Source: Deltaproteobacteria bacterium
GTDB lineage: Bacteria > Desulfobacterota > Syntrophobacteria > Syntrophobacterales > Thermodesulforhabdaceae
Direction: 5' to 3'
NCBI GenBank assembly: GCA_019309115.1
Contig: JAFDGW010000016.1
Coordinates: 1-51,668 of the forward strand
Length of the DNA: 51,668 nt
Below, piece by piece: positions 156 to 11,744 of the stretch (the stretch's first letter is position 1; every line of letters starts with the position of its first letter). The notes under the pieces are model-generated. The model was not told the origin of the DNA and did not search any database. It worked only from the letters and a program-made list of their open reading frames with translations. The position numbers and the translations under genes are program-made.

Positions 156-2470
156 ATTGTTTTGGAATATCCTGCCACCCTGGGGAAAGTAGTTTCAATT
201 CCTCATAGGTAGGCTCGCAATAGACTTGGGTTTCTCTGGAACCGGTAATCGATCCAGGTTTCAATTCCTCATAGGTAGGCTCGCAATGGGTGCAGCGTAG
301 CTTAGCTGTGCAGTGCTTTGCGAGTTTCAATTCCTCATAGGTAGGCTCGCAATGAGTTGCTTGATACATTTGCTTCGAATGCCAAATTAGGTTTCAATTC
401 CTCATAGGTAGGCTCGCAATGTGGTTCTGGTACAACGCTAATCGCTGCTGAAAAGAGTTTCAATTCCTCATAGGTAGGCTCGCAATTCCGCCATCTCCTG
501 CTCGTGAGATCGACTTCGTACGTTTCAATTCCTCATAGGTAGGCTCGCAATTTCTGTGGCGATTGTATTGGTGATTCAGCTCAAGATGTTTCAATTCCTC
601 ATAGGTAGGCTCGCAATACGCTTTCTGAAATCTGCGCACAAAAGGGCAAAGACGTTTCAATTCCTCATAGGTAGGCTCGCAATGCAATGCGATGCTTCGC
701 AATGGCGTAGCTTAACCAGGGTTTCAATTCCTCATAGGTAGGCTCGCAATTATTAATGCGATCATTGACCCCGTGGGGAAAGCAATGTTTCAATTCCTCA
801 TAGGTAGGCTCGCAATTGAAGAGCTCAGGGCGGCAATAGAGAAAGATGCTCAAAGTTTCAATTCCTCATAGGTAGGCTCGCAATCGAACTTGCAGGTTCT
901 ATACTGCGAGCCTCTACCCGTTTCAATTCCTCATAGGTAGGCTCGCAATACCATGCCACCAAGTGCGACGGTCAGCCGGCATGGGTTTCAATTCCTCATA
1001 GGTAGGCTCGCAATTGTTGGAGGCATCGCCTCAGGAAGAAACAAAAGAGCGTTTCAATTCCTCATAGGTAGGCTCGCAATATAAACCAATTAAATATGAT
1101 GTTGAGTCAGTAATAGAGTTTCAATTCCTCATAGGTAGGCTCGCAATGCCGTAGTCCCACTCACTAGGGCTACGTTGGTGCAAGTTTCAATTCCTCATAG
1201 GTAGGCTCGCAATAACACCCTTCATGAATTTGGCGGGATTCATGGCGATGTTTCAATTCCTCATAGGTAGGCTCGCAATTGCCTCTGCCAGCATTTCATC
1301 TTCTCCTTTTTCTTAGTTTCAATTCCTCATAGGTAGGCTCGCAATGCTTTCTTTTAAACATAGTACATCTCCTACTTCAGGGTTTCAATTCCTCATAGGT
1401 AGGCTCGCAATGCGAGTTATGGAGATCCGTGCTCTTTGTAAGACACAGTTTCAATTCCTCATAGGTAGGCTCGCAATGCTTTTAACACACAGATTGAAAA
1501 CGTTTTTCGCTCTGTTTCAATTCCTCATAGGTAGGCTCGCAATTGACAAGGAAACATGCGACAAATGCCCTAGTCGTAAGTTTCAATTCCTCATAGGTAG
1601 GCTCGCAATCTGCGTTGGCGGCTGCCAAAACAAAAGCACTAGCCGGTTTCAATTCCTCATAGGTAGGCTCGCAATTCAAGGATGTGGTCAAGGGAAAATT
1701 TTTGAAAATATGTTTCAATTCCTCATAGGTAGGCTCGCAATCTGAAAAGCCAGACATTGCAGCACCACCAAATATAGTGTTTCAATTCCTCATAGGTAGG
1801 CTCGCAATTCACATTCCGGCCCGGGGCGACCGGGGTGAGCCAATGTTTCAATTCCTCATAGGTAGGCTCGCAATGCAACCGCGCTGCAACCCGCAAACAG
1901 ACAATCAGCGGTTTCAATTCCTCATAGGTAGGCTCGCAATTTGAATACAACAGGCTTGCTCCAGAGGGCACTCCTTGTTTCAATTCCTCATAGGTAGGCT
2001 CGCAATGAAGCTGGTAAGCGATACGCCCTGCTCATAACAACTGGTTTCAATTCCTCATAGGTAGGCTCGCAATGCAAGGTTCGTGGGAAAATGTTTTATT
2101 GAATACCGTGTTTCAATTCCTCATAGGTAGGCTCGCAATCTGCAGTTTTTCATATTCTGTAAGGTCTATTTCTTTGTTTCAATTCCTCATAGGTAGGCTC
2201 GCAATCGGAACCGCGCTACTCACGGTTGCCAAGCAAAGAAAGTTTCAATTCCTCATAGGTAGGCTCGCAATGCGGACGTCAAAAAAGTTGTTGACTTTCC
2301 AACACCACGTTTCAATTCCTCATAGGTAGGCTCGCAATTGTTACGTCTGAAGATGGTCTCACTACGTACGATAAGTTTCAATTCCTCATAGGTAGGCTCG
2401 CAATCAAGTAGTGTCGAGGATTCATGTAGTAGAAAACTGCGTTTCAATTCCTCATAGGTAGGCTCGCAAT
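126..2470 (-). CRISPR. CRISPR array, 36 repeats and 35 spacers
   Basis: The 30-bp repeat reads GTTTCAATTC...GGCTCGCAAT on the + strand. I located 35 copies, which look identical, starting at 192, 258, 324, 391 and so on to 2441. A 36th degenerate copy lies at 126-155: its last 15 or so bases match, its first half does not. The 35 spacers are 35-38 bp, mostly 36. Read on the minus strand the repeat ends in ATTGAAAC, the usual 8-nt 5' handle of type I-B crRNAs. The decayed copy is at the left end, where the oldest repeat of a leftward-transcribed array should be. Orientation is therefore minus, with the leader at the right beside cas2. The 66-bp period is a multiple of three, so false open frames cross the array on both strands. 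Cas6 from 10968-11744 is the expected processing nuclease. Confidence 0.98.
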
Positions 2471-2648: not shown

Positions 2649-2912
2649 TCAAAGAAAGAAATCTTCTCCGCCTTTTTCTCGCCCCATGACTTCCCGACGA
2701 CTGTACCATGTATTTTCGAAACAGTAGATCACTACGGAATCTTCTTCTTCGTTAATAATCTGTTTTAATTCGGCCATCAACCGGGCAAGTTTTCCTTCTG
2801 TTGTTTTTCCCTCGAACACCGAATTCTGAACCCAGTGTAAGTATTTTCTACAAGTTTTTAGAACCTTTGCAACTCGCCTTACGTGAATGTCATAAACCAA
2901 GATTACAAACAT
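2649..2912 (-). CDS. cas2: CRISPR-associated endonuclease Cas2
   Basis: This 87-residue protein is typical in size for Cas2, the dimeric partner of Cas1 in the spacer-acquisition complex. The N-terminus MFVILVYDI forms the first ferredoxin-like strand and carries the conserved Asp (D8). The segment WVQNSVFEG is also typical of Cas2. The gene starts 3 bp after the cas1 stop and is the last gene of the leftward cas operon, directly before the leader. It is complete, with no sign of decay. Confidence 0.96.
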   Translation of the reverse strand: MFVILVYDIHVRRVAKVLKTCRKYLHWVQNSVFEGKTTEGKLARLMAELKQIINEEEDSVVIYCFENTWYSRREVMGREKGGEDFFL

Positions 2913-2915
2913 GAC

Positions 2916-3908
2916 CTACCACGACGCTACAAACGGTTCATATTCTCGTTCTCCCATTAAATGTTTCTGAATTTTGTAGAGCTCTAACCTGATCAACTCT
3001 CTGTAAGAAACATGCCTCCGGAGTCCCCTGTGGTAAAAAGTGGTTGTCATCCGATCTTCCATCTGTTGAACAAAAAGCTTTCGCCCTTCTTCAGTCAGGA
3101 CTGTTCCTCCAAGCTTGCTTTCAAAGTGCTTGGCTTTCATAATACCTTTATTCACGACTGAGAAAATTACTCGGTCCCCAATAATGGGCTTAAATATTTC
3201 AGCCACATCGAGATTTAGGGTGAGGCGACGAAAATTTGTGGCATGTAAGAAACCAATCCTCGGGTCTAAATGGGTATGATATATTTCGCTGAGGCAATAT
3301 ACGTATATTAGAGAGTTAGCAAAGCTTATCAAAGCGTTAAGCCGATTCTGAGGAGGTCTTCGACTTCTATTTTCAAATAAAAAGTCTTTAGAGCTCAGGA
3401 TAGTGTCAAATGCCCGGTAATAAAGATCCTTTATGTTACCTTCAATGGCCATGAGTTCAGACGGGCTGCTCATTGAGTTGACAGCGCCGGTCAAGTCTTC
3501 AATTTTTTCCCTTACATGGCCTACGTCTTTGCCTCGATTTTCATAGTACAATAGGATTCGCCTCATGTTTTCCGCTGCTCCTCGGACAAACTTCTTCGCT
3601 AACGTTAGTCGCGTGTCAGGGTTGAGGTAGTGTTCACATTGTTTCAGAGTCATATACCCGGAATTGAAATGCTCTCTCGGATAAAAACTGCCAACGTAAT
3701 AGCCATAGTAATTGAAAAAATGAAGAACTACGTGACGTTGACCCAGAAATTCGAGAAATCTCTTATTGAAGTTAACTTCGCCAAATACAAGCAATTCCCT
3801 GACATTCTCAATGGGCAGGTATCGTTTACCTTCCTTTCCCTGAAAATACAAAGTGTTGCCTTTTCTTTTCAGCTCTCCATCTGAGAAGATATAAACACTT
3901 TGCCTCAC
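2916..3908 (-). CDS. cas1: CRISPR-associated endonuclease Cas1
   Basis: This 330-residue protein is the integrase of spacer acquisition. The N-terminal beta domain (about residues 1-80) is followed by the helical catalytic domain. The metal-binding triad is visible: E156 in MAIEG, H222 in GFLHATNF and E237 in LDVAEIFKP. Length and sequence style fit type I-B Cas1. The start is GTG at 3908, with AGGAGG about 6 bp upstream. The gene lies 11 bp after the cas4 stop and 3 bp before cas2, so cas4, cas1 and cas2 form one adaptation block. Confidence 0.97.
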   Translation of the reverse strand: MRQSVYIFSDGELKRKGNTLYFQGKEGKRYLPIENVRELLVFGEVNFNKRFLEFLGQRHVVLHFFNYYGYYVGSFYPREHFNSGYMTLKQCEHYLNPDTRLTLAKKFVRGAAENMRRILLYYENRGKDVGHVREKIEDLTGAVNSMSSPSELMAIEGNIKDLYYRAFDTILSSKDFLFENRSRRPPQNRLNALISFANSLIYVYCLSEIYHTHLDPRIGFLHATNFRRLTLNLDVAEIFKPIIGDRVIFSVVNKGIMKAKHFESKLGGTVLTEEGRKLFVQQMEDRMTTTFYHRGLRRHVSYRELIRLELYKIQKHLMGEREYEPFVASW

Positions 3909-3919
3909 TCACATCCTCC

Positions 3920-4426
3920 TTAACCGGCAAAGCAAAACTCAAAAAAAGCACAATGCTTACATAATCCACGTCTAACGGGGGGAGGAGGAGTTTCCGCCTT
4001 ACAGATTGCTTCAACATCCTGCAAAATCTCATCCAGCTTTCGCTTCGCTTCTTCATTCCATTCCACGGCAATTTTCTTCCGCTCCTTCGGGATTCGAACT
4101 TCGCCGCTGAGTTTCAGTCCCTTGTGCCTGAGTCGGTCCATGTAAAATAAAAGCTGCATTTTGGCGGCTTCGAGTTCCTTTGACGATTTCTTGACCTCAC
4201 AAATTACCACCTGATCGCTGTCCTTGGTGACCAGGTCAATTTTCAGATTATCAAACTCTATTTCTTTCTTTTCTCTTTTGTAAGACTCCTCGTTTATGAG
4301 TCGTCCCAAGGCTAGTAAATCCATCTCTGGGTCGGGATTGAGCTGGTGAGCGTAAAGCCATAGCTTCCTATGGCACACCATATAAGCGTTTACAAGGTTC
4401 CCGGTGATCTTGAAATCGCTTACCAT
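3920..4426 (-). CDS. cas4: CRISPR-associated exonuclease Cas4
   Basis: This 168-residue protein is a RecB-like nuclease with an iron-sulfur cluster that trims prespacers and selects PAM-containing ends with Cas1-Cas2. It shows the expected four cysteines: C18 near the N-terminus and C156, C159 and C165 in CKHCAFFEFC near the C-terminus. The RecB active-site residues appear as D64 (KIDLV), E77 and K79 (CEVKKS). The start codon overlaps the 3' end of cas3 by 7 bp, indicating translational coupling. The protein is full length for the short type I Cas4 group. Confidence 0.95.
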   Translation of the reverse strand: MVSDFKITGNLVNAYMVCHRKLWLYAHQLNPDPEMDLLALGRLINEESYKREKKEIEFDNLKIDLVTKDSDQVVICEVKKSSKELEAAKMQLLFYMDRLRHKGLKLSGEVRIPKERKKIAVEWNEEAKRKLDEILQDVEAICKAETPPPPVRRGLCKHCAFFEFCFAG

Positions 4427-7200
4427 ATCTCGCCAGGTTCAATTGTTGTGGCGCCTGCTTCAGTATCTATAAGCCCTAACTTTTTGTCATATTTATAATC
4501 GGCAAAGTAAAGGTTTTTGCACCATCGTAATAGACGCTTACGATCCCCGTTTGACAACAAACGTTCATAATCCTCGCTTAAATTGTTATTACTGATTGAA
4601 TCCAGACATTCCAGGTCTCTTATCCACAATTCGACGGGTTCAAACCTGCGACTTTTCTCTTGATCCATGCTAAAGGGAATCTGGATCACGAACTTTGCAA
4701 ATATCTCTTTCTTAAAACTGGTGTAAAGCCTCTGAGAACTTTTGTACCTCCCGAAGAACGTGCATACCTCATTGATAAAATCGTGCTTCATTTCTCTTGG
4801 AATTACGGAAATTGTAAATATTTCTCTGAAAAGCTTATGGGCCTCTTCTTTGCGATCCGACATGTATCCAGCATCGAGAATGTCCTTTGTCTGCCGGAAC
4901 TTGAGGAGGTAACTACTATCCGCTGGTAGGGATTTGTAGAAATTTTCGACAAGTTCGTGCTTTTCAAACTCGCTTATTTCAAATTCGGCTCCTTTAAACC
5001 AAAGGTTGCTGTCAATAATTGTGGAAAGTACGTCCTGACTTTTCTTCTTTCCACGTTTCCTCTTCTTGGCCTGTCCCGTGTTCTCAGCGATGACTTCTAT
5101 AAATTCACGGTTAAAAAATTCCGAAAGTATTTCTTTTTCTTTGTTTGCGTATTCGTTGGGAACTTCTTTCAGGTTTCCAATCCCTTTTTTCAATAACCAG
5201 GCCAAAGAGAGGTTTAAAAGCTCTTTATTATAAACCAATCCTTTTCCTGATTCTGTCCCATTTTTAAAAAGCCACACAACCACATTCGCTTCTGTTGGCT
5301 CGGGTATGTCATCAAGGTTGACCGTCAGTCCATACCTTCTGAGCACCCTTCCCATGCGTTGAACAAGGGAGTCCATTGGGGCAATCTCGGTAAAAAGAAC
5401 ATCGGCATCAAGGTCAAGTGATGCCTCTACAACCTGGGTTGCTACGAGGATTTTTCCTTCAGATTCATCTTTGGGCTTGGGGTTGCTGAATTCAAATGCA
5501 ACGATTTCTTCAAGATCTTTACGATCATCCAGCGTAAAGCGTGAATGGAGAAGCCAGAGCTTGTCTTTTAAGCCATTGAAGTCTTTGTCAGATTCTGTTT
5601 TCTCCCTCAACCTGCAGAAAATATCCTGGGCCTGTTTGACAGTATTGGCAACGACAAGCACACGCTTGCCCCACTTCGCCTGGCCCAGAATCTTTGTCAA
5701 TTGTTCATCTGGAAGAGAAAAGCTAGTATTGCCTTCGCTAGAATCATTTTCAATCAACTCAATCTTGACTTTATGTTTCCTAATATCTTTAAGGCAATGT
5801 TCTTCTTTTTTGTATAAATTGATTTTTTCGTAACAGTCAGTTCCAATCGCATCGTCAATTTCGTTCAGGATAAATAAAGGCAAAGTGGCGGTCATTAGAA
5901 GGAATTTCCCGCCCATGCGCACAGTGTCCTCTATGAACTTGACCACAATGGCGACAGCGCGTGGATCGTATGCCTGAACTTCGTCAATAATGAGCCGCGA
6001 GTAAGAAAGCGTGGCATAAATCTTCTCATATCCAGGTGGACGCAGGGCATAGGGAAAGAATTGATCACCCGTTGAAACTATCACAGGAAGAGCTAACTGC
6101 CGAGCGAGATCATAGGCTTTCATGCTTGATTGTTCTTCTCCGCCGTCTCCCATAAGGAAAACATCTGCGTCGGAATGAAGTAAGCCAGTCTTATCCTGGC
6201 CAAAAATTCCGATGGCCCGTGCATAGATCTGGTTAACCGCTGCTCGAAGGGGAAGCGTGTAAAAAGACTTTTCGTCACTACCCCAGAGAAAAGCGAACTC
6301 GGTCTTTCCATAACCAGTGGGTGCGATCAAAATGACATTCCTGTCCTCATGACCTTCAATTTCTTGGATTTGCCATATATTTACCGATTTCCCTTTATCT
6401 TTCCCTTTTATTCTTGTTTCTACTATTTCTTTAACCTTCCGAAAACCAAGAGAATATTTCTCTACTTCTGCTGTTTGTAGATCTTCCCCCTCTTCCTCAC
6501 AAAATGAAGCAAAGTGATCTGCACGCTGCAAAAAACCGGCAATGAGTATCCATGTGCGCATATCCTGTTCATCCAGGCCCGCACGTTTCGGAAGAAAATA
6601 AAGCTGATATGGTGGACGGGCATACTCCGAGAAGGGAACTCCGTTTCGCAGGCCCCGAGCAATATTCTCATTAAAATCTATGAAATCCTGCCATTCGTGC
6701 TTTAATCTTTGAATTTCTGCCAGCAGGTTTTCCCGAAGCCGATCTTTTACCGGGTCTATTGTGTCCAGTAAATCTGCAATCTCTTGGCTGGGAGTGCTGA
6801 TGAGTTCAAAGAAATTATCCCGCCAGTGATGATAGGCGATGGCGGAAACCAGAAACTCCCGGTAAGCTTCAGCATGATCCCGATGATCCTTGGCTAACTT
6901 CTTCTGCAACTCTTCTTCATTTATCCAGAGTATAGAAAAAAAAGAATGAGGAATGTTGATAAGGGGAAAATTAGGGGTGTAATGCTTGTTTTTGAGTGTC
7001 CGAACCTGGAAAGCTGGAAGCACTTTGCCTAGATCGTGACACACAATGGCAAGACGAATGAGATCACTCAGGGAATCACTGAGATGGTGACTGATTCTAT
7101 CGAAAGATTCCAGAGCATCCCGTATGTGCTCATGCAGGCGAATGAATTTGCCTGCTTCTTTTACGCCGCCTTTCGCGTAAATTGGCGAGGGTGCTTTCAT
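4420..7200 (-). CDS. cas3: CRISPR-associated nuclease-helicase Cas3
   Basis: This 926-residue Cas3 is the nuclease-helicase recruited by Cascade to shred target DNA. The N-terminal HD nuclease domain carries LHEH (H23), CHDLGK (H55, D56), H85 and the paired histidines at 124-125. The superfamily 2 helicase follows: Walker A APTGYGKT at about 293-300, a DEVQAYD Walker B at about 406-412, TATLP at about 437-441, and motif VI QRMGRVLRR at about 614-622. HD and helicase are in one chain, as usual for I-B. ATG at 7200 has GGGAGG 6 bp upstream and lies 2 bp after the cas5 stop. No catalytic residue seems to be missing. Confidence 0.97.
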   Translation of the reverse strand: MKAPSPIYAKGGVKEAGKFIRLHEHIRDALESFDRISHHLSDSLSDLIRLAIVCHDLGKVLPAFQVRTLKNKHYTPNFPLINIPHSFFSILWINEEELQKKLAKDHRDHAEAYREFLVSAIAYHHWRDNFFELISTPSQEIADLLDTIDPVKDRLRENLLAEIQRLKHEWQDFIDFNENIARGLRNGVPFSEYARPPYQLYFLPKRAGLDEQDMRTWILIAGFLQRADHFASFCEEEGEDLQTAEVEKYSLGFRKVKEIVETRIKGKDKGKSVNIWQIQEIEGHEDRNVILIAPTGYGKTEFAFLWGSDEKSFYTLPLRAAVNQIYARAIGIFGQDKTGLLHSDADVFLMGDGGEEQSSMKAYDLARQLALPVIVSTGDQFFPYALRPPGYEKIYATLSYSRLIIDEVQAYDPRAVAIVVKFIEDTVRMGGKFLLMTATLPLFILNEIDDAIGTDCYEKINLYKKEEHCLKDIRKHKVKIELIENDSSEGNTSFSLPDEQLTKILGQAKWGKRVLVVANTVKQAQDIFCRLREKTESDKDFNGLKDKLWLLHSRFTLDDRKDLEEIVAFEFSNPKPKDESEGKILVATQVVEASLDLDADVLFTEIAPMDSLVQRMGRVLRRYGLTVNLDDIPEPTEANVVVWLFKNGTESGKGLVYNKELLNLSLAWLLKKGIGNLKEVPNEYANKEKEILSEFFNREFIEVIAENTGQAKKRKRGKKKSQDVLSTIIDSNLWFKGAEFEISEFEKHELVENFYKSLPADSSYLLKFRQTKDILDAGYMSDRKEEAHKLFREIFTISVIPREMKHDFINEVCTFFGRYKSSQRLYTSFKKEIFAKFVIQIPFSMDQEKSRRFEPVELWIRDLECLDSISNNNLSEDYERLLSNGDRKRLLRWCKNLYFADYKYDKKLGLIDTEAGATTIEPGEIW

Positions 7201-7202
7201 AG

Positions 7203-8006
7203 CTATCCTCCCAAGTCGGCGAGAAACATAGGGAGTTTACAATCTCTGTCAAAAAGAAAACGCTTTCCCGTGAATAAGCCTTCACTGAGTTTGGCTGTCA
7301 TGTGGTCAAAGATGCGCTTTCCGTGACGATTGCGCGTTTCCGCGTAGTTTTCGACAGTCCAGAAGGTGGGAAGTCTGTAAATGAGACCATTAAGCTGATC
7401 AAAATCCGTAGCATCGTTCTGTGATGCTGGCAGGAACATTTTTTCTGGAATCCAGAAAAAGTGTTCAAAGTTGGCATCCACTCGCATAAGTTGAAACATT
7501 GATAGTTTGGACATGTTTGATATTTCTTCCACGACAATCCAGTCCTCTGCGCGCCCGAGATGCAAAACATCAAGACGACGCATAGGATTTCTAAGAGCAT
7601 AGTTAACCTCTGCGAGAAATTTTTCTTCCTCGTGGGCCAGGTGAATAATCACCCTCACGTCGTTGAGGATGTCTATAAGGACAGGAGATTGACCTCCTAT
7701 ATGTTCAATATGGCCTCCAATAGAGCGATTCTCCGTAGTGCCAAAGCGCTTCTCATGCTCCGACTTCGATAGATTGCGAAACCATACATATTCTGTGGTT
7801 TTGCTTTCAAATCGGCCGGCAATCGAAATTTTCAACTTTTTCAGGTTTTCACACTCAGCCGGCATGCTGTCATAGCCCAGTATATTGCACAAGAAACCGA
7901 TTACCGTAGAGTAAGGCGGTATCGGATAAGTATGTCGCTGTCGATAGGTAAAAGGTACACGATAGTGTGCTTGAGGTTGATAAATCCTGACTCTGAACAC
8001 ATGCAT
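7203..8006 (-). CDS. cas5: Cascade subunit Cas5 (type I-B, Tneap-like)
   Basis: This 267-residue RAMP protein caps the 5' handle of the crRNA in Cascade. The N-terminal strand (MHVFRVRIYQPQAHYR) leads into PIPPYSTVIGFLCNILG, the conserved Cas5 helix that follows the first strand. The segment LHLGRAEDW is characteristic of Cas5 of the Tneap/Hmari I-B group. It lies immediately upstream of cas3 and downstream of cas7, the standard order. The 92-bp gap to cas7 is the longest in the operon and holds a promoter-like sequence. Confidence 0.93.
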   Translation of the reverse strand: MHVFRVRIYQPQAHYRVPFTYRQRHTYPIPPYSTVIGFLCNILGYDSMPAECENLKKLKISIAGRFESKTTEYVWFRNLSKSEHEKRFGTTENRSIGGHIEHIGGQSPVLIDILNDVRVIIHLAHEEEKFLAEVNYALRNPMRRLDVLHLGRAEDWIVVEEISNMSKLSMFQLMRVDANFEHFFWIPEKMFLPASQNDATDFDQLNGLIYRLPTFWTVENYAETRNRHGKRIFDHMTAKLSEGLFTGKRFLFDRDCKLPMFLADLGG

Positions 8007-8098: not shown

Positions 8099-9190
<1,092 letters not shown>

Positions 9191-9206: not shown

Positions 9207-9749
9207 CTACTCGTCTTCTTCCTTACCCAGAACACCGCTCAAGAATGAGAATAAAAGAACCTTAAAGAGCTCATCAGAATAAATGGGCTTGAAAGCTTCT
9301 GCCAGCAGTGGAGGAAAATCTTTTTTCGCAGAGACGAAGATTCGGAGTATGGAATAAAATACTTCGTCCCGTTTGCCTGCTCGTACAAGCTCAAGAATGC
9401 GGTAACCCTGACGGTCGAAGGTTCCTTTCAGGTCGGGATCCCTTTTACAGGCATAACCGGTTTTTTTCAGGCCATCCATTAGCTGTGAAGCATTCCAACC
9501 AGCAACCTGACGATAAAGTCCCCAAAACCTTCTTTCCTCCTCCTTACCGCGCTGATCTTCCGCAGCCCACTGGAGCATACTCTGAAAGTCTCGTTGAAGC
9601 TTTTGCAAACCGCGATAGGTCTTTTGAAAATCCTCGAAGACCGGATTATCCTTGATTATCTGTTCCTTAAGTTTTCCCTCTAGTTGCCGCTGGAATGTTT
9701 CAAAAAACTGTTCCAGCTCAGCTTCTTGCAAAACGGTGCCTATGCCCAT
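9207..9749 (-). CDS. Cas11-like small subunit, separate C-terminal part of Cas8b1
   Basis: This is a 180-residue, largely helical and charged protein. Its second half (from about QGYRILELVRAG to FSFLSGVLG) resembles, from memory, the C-terminal domain of full-length Cst1/Cas8b1, the part that supplies the Cas11 small subunit. In type I-B that subunit is normally made by internal translation inside cas8b. Here it has its own ATG at 9749, a strong AAGGAGG about 7 bp upstream, and a different frame from cas8b1, whose last 32 bp it overlaps. The frame stays open upstream to 9881, but that extension does not look like Cas8b. Alternatives are a frameshifted cas8b1 or programmed frameshifting. The two products together (417 + 180) equal roughly one usual Cst1 length. 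Confidence 0.75.
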   Translation of the reverse strand: MGIGTVLQEAELEQFFETFQRQLEGKLKEQIIKDNPVFEDFQKTYRGLQKLQRDFQSMLQWAAEDQRGKEEERRFWGLYRQVAGWNASQLMDGLKKTGYACKRDPDLKGTFDRQGYRILELVRAGKRDEVFYSILRIFVSAKKDFPPLLAEAFKPIYSDELFKVLLFSFLSGVLGKEEDE

Positions 9750-10971
9750 ACGCTTCCCTCCTTTTTCGTTTTTCCTCAATGATGGTGCAGAGCTTGAAAA
9801 TGCGATCAGCCACTCGGGTAGGGTTTTTCTGGTTCTTGTCCAGCTTAAGCACATACTTGATATAGTTATTATTACGCTCATTGTGGGGCTTCAGCCCAAT
9901 CCTTAACAACCGGTACCCCATTTCCATGAGACGGGAAAAATCCCGATCAAGAACCAGATTGAGAATTGTAAACTCTCCGATCCTGCTCAGGATTTCCGCA
10001 ATCCTCCGATCGGAAAGAAGCTGAATTACGTCATAAGGCATGCTAGAGAACTCAACTTGGTCCCTGTGCCGACTGACTACCTCTATGTTCATCCCCGTCC
10101 AGGCGCCAAGGGTTGTCTGTACTTTAGTGGCGTATTCAATTACCGACATGGCAAGAATATTTCTCTTATTAAGTGTTTTCTTAGAACTCGAGGTGCCTAA
10201 AAGCCCGACGGCAAATTTATTGAGATGCCACATAACTTGAAAGGATGGTGCATTGATAAAAATTTCCGAACCGTCGGAGAGCTGGACAAACGCAAAGCGA
10301 TGGTGAATTATGAGAAAAGAACAGAGAAAACAAATTCTCATACTGTGATTCATGTTCCAAAATCCATTTGGAAATTTTTCAGGCGACGATCCTAACTCTT
10401 TTAGGTGGGTTGATTGCAATTGGGTCAGCCTTACCTGTAATTTGCTCTTGGGGTCCTTAATAATTACAGGGTAGCAAAAGCACAAATCGCATTTTTCCCC
10501 CTCTGATACCGCAATCAGCTTTGGTATGTTTGCAACTAGGCCAGGATATTCAAACGACTGCCACTCAGAAAATTGAACAAGATTTTGAAATGGTGTTTTA
10601 GAAGCGAATAACTTATTACCTGCTCTTACAAACTTATAGCCAAAATCGCTCCTACCGAATCGCTCATAAAAATCTCGGTATTTATCAGCATTTGTTTCCT
10701 TGCTACTCCCCTTACCAGTTGTTTCATTCTTCCAATCCTTTAATTCTTCTTCGGAAACTTCATAATCCACAAGATATTTTATTACTTTCGGAATTTCGAC
10801 TTTCCCGTATTTGATTTTGTCAAATATAGAGCTACTTAGTTCTAATACACCATTCTGGCTCAAAAAATCCGTAACGTTTTCACCACCTGTTTCCAGCACT
10901 CTCAGCAACCCAATAACTCCAGCATTATAAAGCCAGTTTGATGGATAAAGGGTAAATTTCTCTTCGCTCAT
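9718..10971 (-). CDS. cas8b1: Cascade large subunit Cas8b1/Cst1 (CXXC-CXXC type), short form
   Basis: This 417-residue large Cascade subunit is thought to recognise the PAM. The N-terminus LYPSNWLYNAGVIGLLRVLE is the recognisable Cst1 start. The two zinc-binding pairs that name the family are present: CDLC at about 161-164 and CFLC at about 214-217. The chain ends after a basic helix (EEKRKRREAYGHRH) without the usual C-terminal small-subunit domain, which is encoded next door in another frame. ATG at 10971 is preferred: it has GGAGG 8 bp upstream and overlaps the cas6 stop as ATGA, whereas the GTG at 10986 lacks a proper site. Confidence 0.92.
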   Translation of the reverse strand: MSEEKFTLYPSNWLYNAGVIGLLRVLETGGENVTDFLSQNGVLELSSSIFDKIKYGKVEIPKVIKYLVDYEVSEEELKDWKNETTGKGSSKETNADKYRDFYERFGRSDFGYKFVRAGNKLFASKTPFQNLVQFSEWQSFEYPGLVANIPKLIAVSEGEKCDLCFCYPVIIKDPKSKLQVRLTQLQSTHLKELGSSPEKFPNGFWNMNHSMRICFLCSFLIIHHRFAFVQLSDGSEIFINAPSFQVMWHLNKFAVGLLGTSSSKKTLNKRNILAMSVIEYATKVQTTLGAWTGMNIEVVSRHRDQVEFSSMPYDVIQLLSDRRIAEILSRIGEFTILNLVLDRDFSRLMEMGYRLLRIGLKPHNERNNNYIKYVLKLDKNQKNPTRVADRIFKLCTIIEEKRKRREAYGHRHRFARS

Positions 10972-11744
10972 AAATGACCCCTCCACATCCCAATGCAGCC
11001 AAAACCCTGAGAATTCCTACTTCCGAGACCTGCGGCAAAAGCAAGGGGATAGACCTCTGGGGGTAATGAAAGTTCAAATACCCCTGACCAGCCTTTGATT
11101 ATGGTACCTTTGTAGTAAACAATGTTTTCCCGCTTGTTGATCCGCAAGGGCTTGATACAGGCCTGTCCGTCCAGGCTCAAATCATCATCCCTTAAGGTTC
11201 TGTATTTTCTGGCAAGATTGGAAAGAACAAGCTCGCTGAATTCAGATTCATGGGGCGACAGGTAGCGAGTGAAGTTCTTACCGTTCACTTTCTCTGTTCT
11301 GTAAACTGTGATGGGTGAAAGAGTTTCCACCACGACAGGGGATTTATAGTGCGGTGGTACTTCAGGCAAAACGCTACTCACGTAAACATCCTGATCTGGA
11401 ATGCCGGGTCCCTTTATTTGCAGACATTGTTGACTGCGTAAGTTATTGCAAAGAGAAACTATGAACTCCTTGAGAGGAGAAGCAATGACCCAGGAGATCG
11501 GATAAGAAAATTTTATTGTCCGTCTTTCGAGGTCGATTCGGGGTTTTCTCGACCCAATAAGTCTGGAAAAAGTAAAAAGCTTCAGGCTACGAGTGCCATA
11601 AGGGTCCTTAATGCCATGTTCGTGTATACGTTCAGCAATCTGTGGATCCAAGTGGCGGTAAATAATCCCTTGTAATATTTCATTATGATGAATGGGCAGC
11701 AAAAGATATTCCTGGTCCCCTGTTAATTTTATCCTGAGCCGCAT
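10968..11744 (-). CDS. cas6: CRISPR pre-crRNA endonuclease Cas6
   Basis: This 258-residue RAMP endonuclease cuts the repeat RNA to leave the 8-nt handle. The N-terminal strand MRLRIKLTGDQEYLLLPI and the C-terminal glycine-rich loop (GLGSRNSQGFGCIGMW) are the Cas6 signatures. Histidines at about 19-20 and 41-43 are candidate catalytic residues; which one acts cannot be told by eye. It is the first gene of the operon, has a GGGGGGA ribosome binding site 5-6 bp upstream, and is coupled to cas8b1 by an ATGA overlap. Confidence 0.94.
   Translation of the reverse strand: MRLRIKLTGDQEYLLLPIHHNEILQGIIYRHLDPQIAERIHEHGIKDPYGTRSLKLFTFSRLIGSRKPRIDLERRTIKFSYPISWVIASPLKEFIVSLCNNLRSQQCLQIKGPGIPDQDVYVSSVLPEVPPHYKSPVVVETLSPITVYRTEKVNGKNFTRYLSPHESEFSELVLSNLARKYRTLRDDDLSLDGQACIKPLRINKRENIVYYKGTIIKGWSGVFELSLPPEVYPLAFAAGLGSRNSQGFGCIGMWRGHL

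Follow-up and report, generated by a model that had tools for sequence, protein, structure and literature searches.

A predicted stand-alone gene for the Cascade small subunit in a type I-B CRISPR-Cas operon

The stretch of DNA analyzed here (51,668 nucleotides, hereafter the window) carries a complete CRISPR-Cas operon of type I-B (Cst1/Cas8b1 branch). The small subunit of its Cascade is very probably encoded by an independent gene, cas11b, that would be translated separately and act in the belly of the complex (probability of roughly 0.93). The first-pass annotation had proposed a small subunit encoded as a separate gene downstream of cas8b1, and PADLOC profiles identify this downstream product as Cas11b. 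On the minus strand, the genes are arranged in the order cas6, cas8b1, cas11b, cas7, cas5b, cas3, cas4, cas1, and cas2, followed by the CRISPR array (Table 1). The features that mark the Cst1/TNEAP branch of type I-B occur together, namely, cas3, cas5b, cas6, cas7 (Cst2), a CXXC_CXXC Cas8b, and the array, which may reach further toward the contig end at position 1. The cas7 gene contains an in-frame 15-nt direct repeat in three imperfect copies (positions 8926-8980). In the searched genomes of the same order and of the nearest relatives of the window, neither the Cas11b model nor the window Cas8 found a match, and the operon may therefore have arrived horizontally.

Table 1. Features of the type I-B CRISPR-Cas operon in the window
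Feature	Position	Strand	Profile match or detail
cas6	10968..11744	-	TIGR01877, E 4.1e-35
cas8b1, large subunit, 417 aa	9718..10971	-	PDLC01204, E 1.6e-123; ATG start, TGA stop
cas11b, predicted stand-alone small subunit, 180 aa	9207..9749	-	PDLC01193, E 1.1e-59; PDLC01190, E 1.4e-37
Overlap of cas8b1 end and cas11b start, 32 nt, +1 frame	9718..9749	-	
cas11b Shine-Dalgarno sequence AAGGAGG, within the cas8b1 frame (AAA AGG AGG)	9757..9763	-	
cas7 (Cst2/DevR)	8099..9172	-	TIGR02585, E 4.8e-41
cas5b	7203..8006	-	TIGR01895, E 4.9e-35
cas3 helicase-nuclease	4420..7200	-	TIGR01587, E 2.6e-68; TIGR01596, E 1.1e-18
cas4	3920..4426	-	TIGR00372, E 7.6e-25
cas1 (type I-B)	2916..3908	-	TIGR03641, E 9.8e-138
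cas2	2649..2912	-	TIGR01573, E 2.3e-14
CRISPR array	192..2470		35 exact copies of a 30-nt repeat; strand unassigned

The Cas11b product (P0001) gives a full-length profile match, in which positions 11-162 of the 164 in PDLC01193 align with residues 24-179. It is also matched by PDLC01190, labelled "Small subunit of some of I-B systems." Every one of the 26 aligned cas11 products is matched by both of these main Cas11b models, and the control genome of Methanocaldococcus jannaschii likewise contains a Cas11b model match. In the longer Cas8b profile PDLC02050, positions 196-396 align with the Cas8b1 product (P0002) and positions 431-492 with the Cas11b product. Since the two matches follow in order, the pair is collinear with fused Cas8b. 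Pfam and NCBIfam profiles did not recognize the small protein, a phmmer search against solved structures returned no relative for either the Cas11b or the Cas8 product, and Cas11b showed no sequence match to Csa5 or Cse2. The frame at 9749-9207 could also encode some unrelated accessory protein rather than a small subunit, a reading compatible with the N-terminal 85 residues, which are missing from short relatives and have no Pfam family match of their own. Nevertheless, the specific Cas11b profile matches, the location of the gene, which lies between cas8 and cas7 in 26 loci, and the homology that its product shares with the C-terminal part of fused Cas8b (E 6e-5 for PDLC02050; E 2.5e-16 for L032, a fused relative) make this exceedingly improbable.

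The large subunit was found to be whole in the terms of its own family. The match to the PADLOC Cas8b profile PDLC01204 runs to the very end of the profile (position 337 of 337), which aligns with residue 405 of the 417-aa product, so the protein is not truncated for that family, and a zinc-finger-like CXXC...CXXC motif is present. NCBIfam and Pfam call Cas8b1/Cst1 only at the edge of the cutoff (TIGR01908, 19.3 bits against a cutoff of 19.4). Judged by sequence comparison, the window Cas8b1 is complete for its own family and lacks the C-terminal small-subunit domain. The earlier suggestion that Cas8b1 ends early thus holds relative to fused relatives but not within its own family. The window does not have the single uninterrupted frame of a fused Cas8b with an internal Cas11b start: cas8b1 stops at 9718, and cas11b lies in a different frame.

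Structure models are in line with this division. The Cas8 model (pLDDT, 86) is most similar to two solved type I-B Cas8b chains, matching the first ~370 residues of 8ip0_J (Z, 8.9) and 8h67_L (Z, 8.8), and to the type I-A Cas8a chain 7tr6_C (Z, 7.2), with which the model aligns over nearly its whole length (residues 3-403). This fits a Cas8b without a C-terminal small-subunit domain. The AlphaFold model of Cas11b is all-helical, with a mean pLDDT of 90. The best match of its C-terminal half (residues 86-177) is the small subunit of type III-A, Csm2 (6ifk_C; Z of 6.0 and 3.0 A over 89 residues, scores that helical bundles reach by chance), a likeness that is suggestive only. Foldseek retrieved nothing significant from the PDB with either the Cas11b or the Cas8 model.

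At the junction of the two genes, the cas8b1 stop codon lies 32 nt inside the cas11b frame, the frames differ by +1, and AAGGAGG is located seven bases upstream of the cas11b ATG (9749), exactly as the first-pass annotation had described the overlap, the continuation in another frame, and the start signals. By count alone, Shine-Dalgarno-ATG sites of such strength are at chance level (one per 51 kb, against 0.9 expected). The site nonetheless stands above chance, because AAGGAGG, its spacing, and the same ATG are kept in the six nearest relatives (L012 to L016 and L018) and the cas11 frame is conserved as a protein. Protein identity between the window cas11 and these relatives is 58-65%, with synonymous sites near saturation (pN, 0.21-0.25; pS, 0.71-0.94). 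Both cas8b1 and cas11b evolve as proteins.

The Shine-Dalgarno sequence also supplies an in-frame AGG AGG, at which a programmed +1 frameshift could, in principle, yield a Cas8-Cas11 fusion, either as the sole product or in addition to free Cas11b. Tandem AGG codons favor +1 shifts in Escherichia coli. The cas8 frame reads AAA AGG AGG at this site in the window, L012, L013, L014, L015, and L018 (AGA AGG AGG in L016), and in the window the open cas11 frame extends upstream beyond its ATG. However, the shift that would be needed varies among relatives, being +1 in some, -1 in others, and none in L038, where a stop codon separates two genes in the same frame, and in L017, L021, L033, and L039 the cas11 frame opens just one codon before the ATG. 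Moreover, AGG AGG is a simple consequence of a Shine-Dalgarno sequence in a conserved overlap. A programmed frameshift is therefore very unlikely, and a family-wide one was rejected on the differing shifts. There is a similarly slim chance that, on the branch of the window, AAA AGG AGG doubles as the Cas11b ribosome-binding site and a +1 slip site that produces a minor fusion. If so, this slip-derived fusion would restore the single C-terminally anchored Cas11 copy of fused I-B Cascades.

A search with Cas8 across 84,980 genomes, one per species, yielded 35 loci, which span Aminicenantes, Acidobacteriota, Planctomycetota, Bipolaricaulota, Thermodesulfobacteriota, Bacteroidota, Spirochaetota, Dictyoglomota, and others. 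In 24 of the 35 loci, cas11 is a frame of its own immediately before cas7, six are fused (L032, L040, L041, L042, L043, and L044), and five are cut by contig ends; because the queries were Cas8 sequences of the split type, split loci are overrepresented, and these counts do not represent the natural split:fused frequency. Plasmids and viral contigs were also searched, and no relatives were found there. Together with genome G136 (L003) and the window, the split set comprises 26 loci. In nine of them, including the window, the genes overlap by 14-32 nt in the +1 frame, and each ATG is preceded by AGGAGG or a better motif. Ten have overlaps of 1-4 nt, and seven have gaps of 2-13 nt, including L038, in which the two genes share a frame.

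This distribution bears on whether a sequencing or assembly indel has broken a normal fused cas8b1. Each of the two products is indeed homologous to one end of a single fused protein in L032 and in L040. Against an indel, the same break, accompanied by a start codon and Shine-Dalgarno sequence, recurs in 26 loci, at junctions ranging from 32-nt overlaps to 13-nt gaps, and the end of the Cas8 profile coincides with the end of the window Cas8. The probability of such an artifact is close to nil, and sequencing error as the source of the split was rejected on its conservation among relatives. The first-pass annotation had called for a search for the same split in relatives; with 26 split loci (the window included) from many phyla and six fused ones, that search supports its view of a natural separation of the small subunit.

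In L032 and L040, one protein joins the same two families, Cas8 and Cas11. Internal start sites are found in most fused relatives: AAGGAG-ATG in L032 (103-aa product), AAGGAGG-ATG in L041, L042, and L044 (112-122 aa), and GGAGG-ATG in L040 (134 aa). Because a ribosome site and ATG mark the Cas11 boundary in most fused relatives, the same kind of element appears to start the small subunit in the split and fused states, the difference being a nearby large-subunit stop codon. In a maximum-likelihood tree of Cas8 cores, which is unrooted and has fused L041-L044 on long branches, fused L032 sits inside a well-supported split clade (branches 99/100 and 97/95). This implies a secondary fusion there or several splitting events, and on this tree the split and fused states appear to interconvert.

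Several relatives showed further variation. Short Cas11b forms (~100-122 aa; L022, L031, L035, L037, L039, and L003), without the N-terminal three helices of the window form, group with fused L032 in the tree. The 663-aa Cas8 frame of an Omnitrophota locus (L043:53-2041) ends in two tandem Cas11-like C-terminal segments, with residues 98-178 of P0001 matching 489-569 and residues 106-175 matching 590-659; both Cas11b profiles match two stretches, and AGGAG-ATG lies ahead of the second segment. Cas7 carries an insert of ~80-200 residues, after window Cas7 residue ~190-230, in L016, L017, L021, L022, L026, L033, and L039; the window Cas7 does not have it, and no Pfam match to the insert was found in the six loci scanned (all but L021). 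In G136, cas7 is present as two consecutive frames of 118 and 241 aa (L003:1842-2933), matching the N- and C-terminal Cas7 parts, which reflects either a stop codon or a real split.

For the independent cas11b gene, the following scheme is proposed. Cas11b would be translated from its own strong ribosome-binding site within the last cas8b1 codons, probably coupled to cas8b1 translation. The solved complex of a fused I-B system has the composition Cas8b1-Cas7b7-Cas5b1-Cas6b1-Cas11b3, and its belly, which grips the non-target strand, is built from the Cas8b C-terminal domain and three Cas11b copies (PMC11096372). In the window Cascade, the inner belly would be lined by several copies of Cas11b that hold the non-target strand during R-loop formation, a position and copy number that we infer, while Cas8b1 would recognize the PAM. 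Since the window Cas8b1 lacks a C-terminal Cas11-like domain, one more free Cas11b is expected, most likely filling the belly position of the missing domain, as in types I-A and I-E. Free Cas11b probably also retains Cas8b1, because in Thermotoga maritima Cas8b1 was not retained in the complex without Cas11 (PMC13199841).

Stand-alone Cas11b is not new in itself: annotation libraries already hold profiles of such I-B small subunits, and the split arrangement is in that sense known. The window protein is a member of the family described by PDLC01193 and PDLC01190, with a full-length match, relatives that share the gene position, and no substantive difference. The open literature that was searched, a part of the whole, does not discuss a stand-alone I-B Cas11, and papers on I-B Cascade, one from 2026 among them (PMC13199841), state that type I-B has no stand-alone Cas11 gene. 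The split form is nevertheless widespread across phyla. Split systems would permit deletion, tagging, or titration of the small subunit without touching Cas8, and the mix of split and fused relatives offers a way to ask what the Cas8-tethered Cas11 copy contributes.

Among characterized systems, the closest counterpart is the internally translated Cas11b of fused Cas8b, described for Haloferax volcanii (PMC11899642) and SynCascade (PMC11096372) and predicted from an internal start in T. maritima (PMC13199841). Like it, the window Cas11b is a predicted small helical subunit that corresponds to the Cas8b C-terminal region and starts near the end of the large-subunit gene. However, the internally translated form is an in-frame product and Cas8b keeps a C-terminal copy, whereas the window has a separate gene and a Cas8 without the domain; the window Cas11b is also longer (180 aa, compared to about 15 kDa). 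Separate genes for the large and small subunits are shared with types I-A and I-E (Csa5 and Cse2), but unlike in those types, the other genes in the window are of type I-B (Cas5t, Cst2, and Cas1b).
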